From Candidatus Geothermincola primus (GTDB taxonomy: Bacteria; Actinomycetota; Geothermincolia; Geothermincolales; Geothermincolaceae): a stretch of 45,479 nucleotides of DNA. The position numbers were made by a program, and so were the translations under genes. The DNA lies in NCBI GenBank assembly GCA_015711725.1, contig JACVIX010000008.1, positions 1 through 45,479 on the forward strand, given 5' to 3'. Shown piece by piece: positions 21,756 to 25,178 of this stretch. How positions within the stretch are numbered: position 1 is the first letter of the stretch; every line of letters begins with the position of its first letter. The notes beneath the pieces are model-generated. The model ran no database searches. It saw only the letters and a program-made list of their open reading frames with translations, and was not told the DNA's origin.

Positions 21756-24700
21756 TCAATCTTCCACCTGGGTGATTCTCACCGTTTTGCTGGCAAGAGA
21801 GCCAATGGTGACCCTCAATTGGAAATTAAGTCTATCTGGATGTTCAGGGACTTCGCTTACCAAGTAGGAGTCCGCTCCGTAGACCTCGTAATGATAGCCC
21901 AGGCCAGGCCGAGGCATGAAGAACTCCAACTCGCACTGGCTAAAAGCCTTTTCCAATTTATTGGTTATATCGCACCAAACATCGGTATCTCCACCACTCC
22001 AATCACCATTGTTGGAGAAGATATACTGTACGGATGTCTTGTTGAGTTTGGAGAGGTCGGTATTGCCTCCTATGTTCACTCCCTCATAATAGGGATAAGA
22101 GTAATATACCCCGTTCAAGTACTTATAGCTATGGGAAACTAGATTCCAGCCTGAGAATTCGGCTATCTTAAACCCAGGATAACGATTGCTAACACCATCC
22201 TTTTGAATGGCCACACTGGTAGCGTTGGGGAAGATGGTCTTTCCTCCACCCATAGCCCAGGCCAGCTCATGGTATTGGTCCACATGGTCGTGTCCGCTCA
22301 TTACCATGTTCACTTTATATTCAGAGCAGAGTCGCTGCACGGCCATTCTGCCTTTACCGTACTGTCCCAACACAATTATTCCGAAGTAATCGGAGGGCTT
22401 CCACATGCCATCAACTGTGGGATCATGATGCATGAACAATCCTTTGAAAGAGCTGTCTTGATGCGCCGCCAGGTCATCACGCAGCCAACCTAATTGATCG
22501 GTATATGTGCTGGGATCTGGGGCGATGCGATAACAATCATTGCAGCTCTCCGCCAGGAACCATGTAGTGGCGTTGCTCAGCGCGCCGAACACGCAATGGC
22601 CATCCGTCCATTTCCCCCGGTAGTTGAAGTACATGGGGCGCTCGGCGATAACCGGAAGGGTGGATTCAAGCTTGATGGAGATGTCCCCCCGCTCTGGGCA
22701 GTCCCTGTGAACATGGATAGTATATCTACTTCTGGGTTGAACCACGTGTGTCTTCAAGTAATTATTGCCATTGCTCATCATATAATTTACATTTAACGTC
22801 GCCGCTCCGTCGTTGGGATTCTGTATGGTTAAATACTCCTCAAAACCATATCCGGTATATCCTTCAGCGAAATACCAATTGGTGGCTGCCCCGTTCACGC
22901 CCATCACGCAATGTCCCCCATTCCAGCTTCCCCGGTAGTTGAAGTACATGGGTCGCTCGGCGATAACCGGCAGTGTGGAGTCAAGCTTGATGGAAAGCTC
23001 CCCCTTCTCCGGGCAATCGGTGTTTACCGAGATACTGTAACGGCTTTTTGCCGGCACTAGGTGAGACTTACTATAATTATGACCGTTAGCCATCATGTAA
23101 TTAACCGTCAAGGGGGTATCGCTGTCATTGGGATTCTGTATTGTTAAGTACTCCACGAAATCTTTCGCGGTATATCCTTCCGCGAAATACCAATTGGTGG
23201 CGGAGTGGGTGGCGCCGGCCACGCAGTGCCCCCCACTCCATGCCCCACCATACCTGAAGTACATGGGTCGCTCGGCGATAACCGGCAGTGTGGAGTCAAG
23301 CTTGATGGACACGTCCCCGCCTTCTGGGCAATCCTGGTTTACCATAATGCTATATCTGCTTTTCCCAGGCACGATGTGAGACCTGGTATATACATGGCCA
23401 TTGCTCATCATGTAAGTAACGTTTACCTCGGCCGACCCCGTCTGGGGATTCTCTAGGGATAGGTACTCATGAAAGTTAGAATCGGTTCTTCCCTCAGCGA
23501 AATACCAGGTGGTGGAAGGATTAACCGAGCCCAGCACGCAATGGCCCCCATTCCAGGACATATCGTAATCGAAATACATAGGTCGTTCGCAGATAACCGG
23601 CATGCTGGAATCCACCCGGACAGAAAATTCCCCTTTCTCCGGGCAATCCCTATTTACATTTATGGTATACCTGCTTTTTGGTTGGGCCAAGTGTTCCTTG
23701 AGGTAAAGATGGCCATTATACATCATGTATGTTACGTATATGGTTACCGCCGCGTCATTGGGGTTCTGAATGGTGATATATTCCTCGAAAAAGTCATTTG
23801 TATCGCCCCCGGAGCGAACCTGCCCCTGCCAGGCTCCAGGAGCCAGAACCCCAGCCAAGTTGCTATACCAGGGCTGTTCCAGCTTCCTCATCTCCTGAGG
23901 CCAGTCCATGGTGTTTATCGCCGTATAGTGGTGATTGCCATAGTCGAATGAATAGAATAGAGGGCCGAAGGTCTTAGTCCACCAGTCATATCCGTCGTCC
24001 ACGGTGTCGTAATAGCCATCGTGATTTCCCATGACCATAAAAACCGGTACCTTCAGAGCTTGAAGTTCCTCGTACAAGAACGAATACTCATATTCGTACT
24101 CACTAGATCCCCCTCGAGGTTGCCCATCGTTGGGAGGCCACTGGCTAGGCAGATAACGTTGGCCGAAGATAGAATCGCCGGTAATAACTAGGATATCGGG
24201 GTTGAGAAAGTTTACTACACTTATTGCCTTCTTTAAATACTTAGCGTCGTGCAATGCCCTGTCATGCAGGCTGCTATACTCCACCAGTGGATTTCCATAA
24301 GTTATATCGTAGACATGAATGTCGGTCATCTGAACTATACGGTAGTTGGGGTTCCAGTCGTTGACCACCGAGAGGCAATGTGGCTGTCTGTCCACTACCT
24401 CCAGGTCATCCGCCTCCACCTTTACCTCTAGGTCATAAAGATCGGGAGGGATTTCCGAAGGTATCTCCACCGTAACTTTATACACCTCGTAAACCGACCG
24501 CCCGGATCCTTGAGGCCAGCGTTGGCTCATTCCGAAATCCACGCTCAGGATTGGAAGATCCGCGGTAAAAGGCGTGTAATCGTTTGAGCCCGAGATGCTC
24601 ACTTCCCAGTTATCAACGTCAGAAGGCAGCGGGATTGAAGGATTATCCTGACGGAAATCGAACTCAAGGGTAAAATTGGAGCCGGTTTTCGATAATTGGG

Positions 24701-24869
24701 GGAACCCGAATGTGGGGTAGATTAATTTGGTAATGCGCGGCACCACCGCCGCCTCCGCTCTTTCTTCTTCTGCTACTGGCATTATCATCAATGAAGTGAT
24801 AAGAAAAACCGCCAATAGGTAGATAGCGCGGAAACATAACGACCTTCTCTTATCTTTGTTTTTCCACAT
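21756..24869 (-). CDS. Secreted metallophosphoesterase with four 105-aa repeats inserted in the catalytic domain
   Basis: MTDIHV, VITGDS, MVMGNHD, MHHDPT and SGHDH calcineurin-like motifs; signal peptide FRAIYLLAVFLITSLMIM; ATG at 24869 preceded by AGAGGAGTGAGGGAC (the track uses 25022). Confidence 0.85.
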   Translation of the reverse strand: MWKNKDKRRSLCFRAIYLLAVFLITSLMIMPVAEEERAEAAVVPRITKLIYPTFGFPQLSKTGSNFTLEFDFRQDNPSIPLPSDVDNWEVSISGSNDYTPFTADLPILSVDFGMSQRWPQGSGRSVYEVYKVTVEIPSEIPPDLYDLEVKVEADDLEVVDRQPHCLSVVNDWNPNYRIVQMTDIHVYDITYGNPLVEYSSLHDRALHDAKYLKKAISVVNFLNPDILVITGDSIFGQRYLPSQWPPNDGQPRGGSSEYEYEYSFLYEELQALKVPVFMVMGNHDGYYDTVDDGYDWWTKTFGPLFYSFDYGNHHYTAINTMDWPQEMRKLEQPWYSNLAGVLAPGAWQGQVRSGGDTNDFFEEYITIQNPNDAAVTIYVTYMMYNGHLYLKEHLAQPKSRYTINVNRDCPEKGEFSVRVDSSMPVICERPMYFDYDMSWNGGHCVLGSVNPSTTWYFAEGRTDSNFHEYLSLENPQTGSAEVNVTYMMSNGHVYTRSHIVPGKSRYSIMVNQDCPEGGDVSIKLDSTLPVIAERPMYFRYGGAWSGGHCVAGATHSATNWYFAEGYTAKDFVEYLTIQNPNDSDTPLTVNYMMANGHNYSKSHLVPAKSRYSISVNTDCPEKGELSIKLDSTLPVIAERPMYFNYRGSWNGGHCVMGVNGAATNWYFAEGYTGYGFEEYLTIQNPNDGAATLNVNYMMSNGNNYLKTHVVQPRSRYTIHVHRDCPERGDISIKLESTLPVIAERPMYFNYRGKWTDGHCVFGALSNATTWFLAESCNDCYRIAPDPSTYTDQLGWLRDDLAAHQDSSFKGLFMHHDPTVDGMWKPSDYFGIIVLGQYGKGRMAVQRLCSEYKVNMVMSGHDHVDQYHELAWAMGGGKTIFPNATSVAIQKDGVSNRYPGFKIAEFSGWNLVSHSYKYLNGVYYSYPYYEGVNIGGNTDLSKLNKTSVQYIFSNNGDWSGGDTDVWCDITNKLEKAFSQCELEFFMPRPGLGYHYEVYGADSYLVSEVPEHPDRLNFQLRVTIGSLASKTVRITQVED
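22563..23822 (-). repeat. Four tandem 315-bp (105-aa) WYFAEG...YLTIQNPN...ERPMYF repeats
   Basis: Exact 315-bp spacing of the CTCGGCGATA-type motif at 22641, 22956, 23271 and (diverged) 23586; the W/D codon boundaries give units 23822-23508, 23507-23193, 23192-22878, 22877-22563. Confidence 0.93.
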
Positions 24870-25178
24870 GTCCCTCACTCCTCTGACTGCCCTGGAAAAT
24901 ACTTTTAAAAAACGTAGCCTCCCTGCGGAATCTAACCACATCATGGGATTGGCCATCGCTTGTTTATATTTTAATATTAATCCAGGCGCAATGTCATCTC
25001 CCATGGGAATATTCAAAATCATCAGTTTTCCAAAGGTTTCGGAAAAATCGTAAGACTGCCAGTTCCAAAATTGTTTAAAATATATTCAAGTATCTATTAC
25101 TCAAATATAATGGATTAAGCCGGAGATACATCAATCCTGCGTTATCTTGCGTTAGAAAGAACAAGAGGTAGTATAGAA

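Follow-up and report, generated by a model that had tools for sequence, protein, structure and literature searches.

A four-unit ASRAH repeat array nested in the catalytic domain of a secreted metallophosphoesterase of Candidatus Geothermincola primus is probably a closed single-chain ring

We analysed a stretch of 45,479 nucleotides from Candidatus Geothermincola primus (the window), which encodes a secreted metallophosphoesterase (MPE) carrying four tandem units of the ASRT/TM1070 (ASRAH) beta-sandwich superfamily inside its catalytic domain. Judged from the alignment with its relatives, the array was inserted into a variable surface loop that separates motifs III and IV, and a comparison of array registers suggests that the four units probably form a closed single-chain ring. 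The explanation that we favour, and consider probable, is an intact secreted enzyme with a single-chain ASRAH tetramer in its catalytic-domain loop, where the module would have a tethering role after being relocated or re-acquired. The superfamily and its tetrads are already known, while the nesting and the permutation are added here.

The reading frame, as read directly from the sequence, was intact over 1088 aa (Table 1). The DxH, GD, GNH(D/E), H and GHxH motifs that the window protein shares with the calcineurin-like metallophosphoesterases (PF00149), including purple acid phosphatases, were all present and in order, the Pfam Metallophos score was 47.5 bits against a curated cut-off of 21.5, and the layout of an N-terminal beta domain plus MPE is common to the window protein and these relatives. 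Among the Foldseek matches of the window model was the purple acid phosphatase PPD1 (prob 1.00, whole-model TM 0.15–0.24). D234, H236, D283, N333, H334, H865, G910, H911 and H913 were invariant in 15 of 15 aligned sequences, and the two host halves matched positions 2–100 and 139–190 of the 191-position Metallophos profile; the second half alone gave a weak match (E 0.019). Since these are complementary parts of one profile and the metal ligands are invariant, both halves belong to one enzyme.

Table 1. Features of the metallophosphoesterase gene and its nested array (positions in the window)
Feature	Residues (aa)	Position (nt)	Strand	Basis
Whole ORF, secreted metallophosphoesterase with nested tetrad	1088 aa in total	21756..25022	-	ORF, Pfam
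Probable signal peptide, ...CFRAIYLLAVFLITSLMIMP...AEA	52-91	24750..24869	-	Sequence read directly; inferred
N-terminal beta domain, conserved in all MPE relatives	96-222	24357..24737	-	Homolog comparison, model
MPE catalytic domain, first half	223-409	23796..24356	-	Motifs, alignment, Pfam
DIH motif	234	24315-24323	-	In MPE first half
GD motif	282	24174-24179	-	In MPE first half
GNHD motif	332	24018-24029	-	In MPE first half
Insert unit 1 core, without strand 1 (no WYFAEG)	410-505	23508..23795	-	Landmarks, alignment
Insert unit 2	506-610	23193..23507	-	Landmarks
Insert unit 3	611-715	22878..23192	-	Landmarks
Insert unit 4	716-820	22563..22877	-	Landmarks
Trailing strand 1, WFLAESCND, proposed to supply the strand missing from unit 1 and to close the ring	821-829	22536..22562	-	Model, register comparison
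MPE catalytic domain, second half	830-960	22143..22535	-	Motifs, alignment, Pfam
HHDP motif	865	22419-22430	-	In MPE second half, after insert
GHDH motif	910	22284-22295	-	In MPE second half, after insert
C-terminal beta domain	961-1088	21759..22142	-	Homolog comparison, model

Within the insert, the ERPMYF landmarks lie at aa 479, 584, 689 and 794 and the WYFAEG landmarks at aa 506, 611 and 716, with the variant WFLAES at aa 821, giving four units with a spacing of exactly 105 aa, or 315 bp. The 315-bp period was detected independently by TRF, and together with the landmark positions this bears out the original prediction, which had placed DIH, GD and GNHD before, and HHDP and GHDH after, four units of exactly this period. 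The units are 52–66% identical to one another at the amino acid level, and GC content was similar in the array (0.50) and in the host parts (0.50 and 0.48). Because unit 1 lacks WYFAEG and an extra WFLAES stands at the array end, we delimit the foreign segment to about aa 410–829 (22536–23795); the four units proposed earlier for 22563–23822 were thus retained, with slightly shifted boundaries. The insert begins right after the conserved RSGGD and stops before APDPSTYTDQLGWL, and in the closest homologs the empty site reads ...W.GQ.RSGGD....APP....QL.W... The similarity between AATGACTTTT and AATGATTGTT at the junctions was considered as a target duplication and rejected, being too short.

To place the insert we aligned the mature protein with 14 homologs collected across the class Candidatus Geothermincolia (Actinomycetota). 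All 14 had 8–17 residues opposite a stretch of 423 in the window protein, which identifies the array as a true insertion, confirms the earlier claim that it lies between conserved blocks of a single MPE fold, and supplies the insertion-free phosphoesterase that had been proposed as a check. Catalytic-domain loop length was already variable among the relatives; their loop is short, and repeats, if any, are C-terminal. In a class-wide search of 31 genomes, about 44 matches were near full length. Those that were retrieved have a catalytic domain with a short loop, while the frames of the others (at most 641 aa) are too short for host plus insert, so that by this size argument they would not be nested. 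Among the 31 genomes, a nested tetrad was thus found in the window protein only. C-terminal four-unit arrays were present on the MPE relatives L043, L048, L049, L053, L099, L100, L101, L103, L106 and L107, in the order C-terminal beta domain, linker, tetrad. In the survey of copy number, also suggested beforehand, complete C-terminal arrays on MPE relatives had four units except that of L108, where just two were scored; those of L051 and L105 end at contig ends.

Three further relatives were observed in the course of this comparison. The Candidatus Geothermincola primus genome has a second MPE paralog (L041, G000:C49:15318-16154), which is complete, 629 aa long and repeat-free. L110:1485-3932 (G022:C44) consists of an N-terminal domain, part of a C-terminal domain and a C-terminal tetrad with no MPE between, its catalytic domain appearing to have been deleted. 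In L102 (G028:C79:10533-11450), also an MPE relative, an in-frame TGA separates frames of 296 and 717 aa, the result of either pseudogene formation or a sequencing error.

The genome is repeat-rich and in 225 contigs, as would suit an assembly artefact or a gene fusion in which the split motifs come from two enzymes, the outcome that the original prediction had named as its own refutation. We consider this very improbable. Both junctions are in frame within one 45-kb contig, the two halves, taken in order, correspond to a single family and cover complementary parts of a single Pfam profile, and mis-joining through repeats is unlikely given that the units, at the mutual identity given above, are at most about 50% identical to the other arrays of the same genome. 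Nor is the combination of a repeat array and a split MPE a matter of chance, since 92 copies of the unit are present in the genome and the halves are complementary in the Metallophos profile.

To identify the repeat unit, a profile of 21 units was compared with PDB sequences, and it matched TM1070 (1nc7, E 5.8e-5) and ASRT, the Anabaena sensory rhodopsin transducer (2ii7, E 1.5e-4). For one of the genome's canonical C-terminal tetrads the AF2 model was very confident (pLDDT 97, pTM 0.94); a single unit of it matched 1nc7 in Foldseek with prob 1.00, TMt 0.84 and 1.8 Å, and the window model matched it with TMt 0.82. Across the 21 units W1 was nearly invariant and N20 invariant, corresponding to the strand-1 Trp and strand-2 Asn of ASRAH that the window units share with ASRT/TM1070 (PF07100). 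The unit therefore belongs to the ASRT/TM1070 (ASRAH) superfamily, and the probable beta-rich adhesive or surface repeat of the original prediction has to be replaced by a beta-sandwich of this type occurring in fixed fours. Searches at the level of the whole protein were of little use: the sequence search of the window protein against PDB gave no useful match, Foldseek was dominated by long multi-domain chance matches (TM about 0.1), and Foldseek against viral models gave no meaningful whole-module match.

The Pfam ASRT cut-off was exceeded in several sister arrays but was not reached by the window units themselves, whose best Pfam match was DUF5719 (PF18986, E 9.9e-17), a family of unknown function and the usual annotation of such repeats in the Geothermincolia lineage, for which the literature search found no paper. 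As both families match the same units, DUF5719 and ASRT probably belong together, to judge from these profile matches. The ASRT family proper is stand-alone and intracellular and has the H/C ligand signature SHEshChhN, whereas the window units are secreted and tandem, lack this signature and read FEEYLTIQN in strand 2; the window array joins four units in a single chain, follows a circularly permuted register and is nested in a catalytic domain. De Souza, Iyer and Aravind described the superfamily as ASRAH in 2009 (PMC2739507): the strand-1 Trp and strand-2 Asn are defined as features, the TM1070 structure is tetrameric and the stand-alone members are tetramers, sugar or small-molecule binding is predicted, and Chloroflexi secreted amidases carry ASRAH tetrads suggested as possible tetramers. 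The sections of that paper covered here make no mention of nested or permuted tetrads, and our literature search for nested repeats in phosphoesterases found nothing relevant.

We compared the registers of 51 complete tetrads and found three. In 39 of the 51, the array begins at strand 1 and finishes with a GGH element. Seven, including the window insert, begin after strand 1, and every one of these finishes with an additional strand 1 (in L140 the terminal strand, TFFAEG, was missed by the pattern and assigned by eye). The remaining five stop at ERPMYF, and their GGH-type element is found ahead of unit 1 instead (in L069 this element, GDGTCSVG, is degenerate and was also assigned by eye). A missing or doubled element was found in none of the 51, the ends being always complementary. 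With fixed margins, complementarity this perfect would arise by chance with a probability of about 1e-8 if the arrays were independent, which they are not fully: L067/L137 and L071/L140, for example, look like orthologs, so that the 51 arrays are not 51 independent events. A tetrad that can be circularly permuted should have the same kind of border between units 4 and 1 as between units 1 and 2, and would on this sequence evidence form a closed ring.

Structure prediction of the mature protein, one of the checks proposed at the outset, was done with AF2 (pLDDT 89.7, pTM 0.76). The four units and both MPE halves were mostly confident, with the host halves mostly at pLDDT 85–98 and the trailing WFLAES strand at a block mean of 93, and two junctions were weak (pLDDT about 65 and 52), as would be expected of hinges in such a model. 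The ASRT assembly, for which the wording of the literature is 'tetramer', has C4 planar symmetry. We propose that the insert forms a four-unit ring resembling the homotetramer of TM1070/ASRT, in which the trailing WFLAES strand would complete unit 1 and the two ends would adjoin, so that the chain would enter and exit at a single point and the ring could plug into the loop without splitting the enzyme.

The units could instead be four independent Ig-like beads on a linear string that loops out of the enzyme and serves as a spacer or adhesive arm, without any ring. Strings of this type are common on surface proteins, and the units are complete beta-sandwiches with short linkers. However, in such a string unit 1 would lack its first strand and the final strand would belong to no unit; a string also sits poorly with a copy number of mostly four and with ends that compensate in three registers. 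Moreover, linear Ig/FN chains aligned with the sister tetrad model in Foldseek at a whole-model TM of only about 0.1; this tetrad was predicted with high confidence, and its nearest structural relative is a tetramer. We thus regard the bead string as improbable.

The 92 ASRAH units are distributed over about 30 reading frames of the genome, mostly as C-terminal tetrads on cell-wall and surface enzymes. Nineteen larger arrays have four units and the others three, two or one, some of these ending at contig ends; in genome G003, 26 of 37 arrays have four (27 after merging one split match). The own-genome hosts of C-terminal tetrads include Amidase_3, two YkuD transpeptidases, SpoIID and NlpC/P60 with SLH, together with two subtilases, GH39 and a purple acid phosphatase. 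An M28 peptidase has its tetrad at the N-terminal side, one subtilase array was scored as three units, and a CAP protein has a dyad, which is in a permuted register. The one- and two-unit ASRAH proteins observed in the same genome (L079:2089-2640, L080:2049-2468 and L073:2041-3210) could assemble to four as homo-oligomers. In L154:3016-6501 (G003:C4), four near-identical units lie near the N-terminus, and their sequences suggest a recent amplification, again halted at four; the region downstream resembles a multicopper oxidase by eye, with no such Pfam match.

By eye, peptidoglycan enzymes are over-represented among the hosts, which would fit anchoring to wall glycan. By analogy with the superfamily, the tetrad is probably a glycan- or small-molecule-binding module. 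For the window enzyme, tethering by the ring with the enzyme still active appears the likeliest function on the sequence evidence: the ring would hold the enzyme on a cell-envelope glycan or other small-molecule ligand, as C-terminal tetrads would elsewhere. The insertion may instead have killed the enzyme, leaving a binding protein on a dead scaffold. MPE_C is somewhat more diverged in the window protein than in its sisters (40% against 48–57% among the closest homologs), so that activity could be reduced or changed, and the complete paralog on C49 could supply it. Nevertheless, the metal ligands are all invariant, the frame is uninterrupted, the host halves are for the most part confidently modelled and loops of differing length occur at this place in relatives as well, and we consider the loss of activity unlikely. 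We give a similarly low weight to the idea that the nested ring is a ligand-gated switch, in which bound glycan would move the motif III–IV loop and open or close the active site.

As to origin, the C-terminal tetrads on related enzymes of other genomes suggest that the module was either relocated from tail to loop or re-acquired, with one unit copied to four. On the host tree the window protein stands beside the clade that includes the C-terminal arrays, with moderate support (87/89), and L043, which has such an array, branches next to it. By tree and BLAST the window units are closer to one another than to any other unit, whereas several other arrays match unit by position across proteins (for example, u2 and u3 of L043, L062, L064 and L066), suggesting that the window units were probably copied from one unit, or homogenised. 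Their next-best BLAST matches are mostly in MPE-relative arrays (L048, L051, L043 and L110), a weak sign that the module changed its place in the protein, from tail to loop, without leaving the gene family. A grouping of the window units with L043_u4 (FastTree 0.94, SH-aLRT 91) lends weak support to descent specifically from the fourth unit of the G005 homolog's C-terminal array; we do not claim this descent, as BLAST prefers other MPE-array units in several cases.

Taken together, these results present a probable natural case of steps usually treated as protein engineering: the subunits of an oligomer were joined in a single chain, the chain was circularly permuted in several registers, and the product was placed inside an unrelated enzyme. 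If the ligand-gated reading were true, a circularly permuted tetramer ring would have been plugged into this enzyme to control it allosterically. Since the ends of the arrays complement each other strictly, checking them in the sequence offers others a simple test for ring closure. The DUF5719-type repeats of Geothermincolia gain a structural identity as probable single-chain ASRAH tetramers, in a lineage that makes heavy use of ASRAH repeats on its secreted enzymes.
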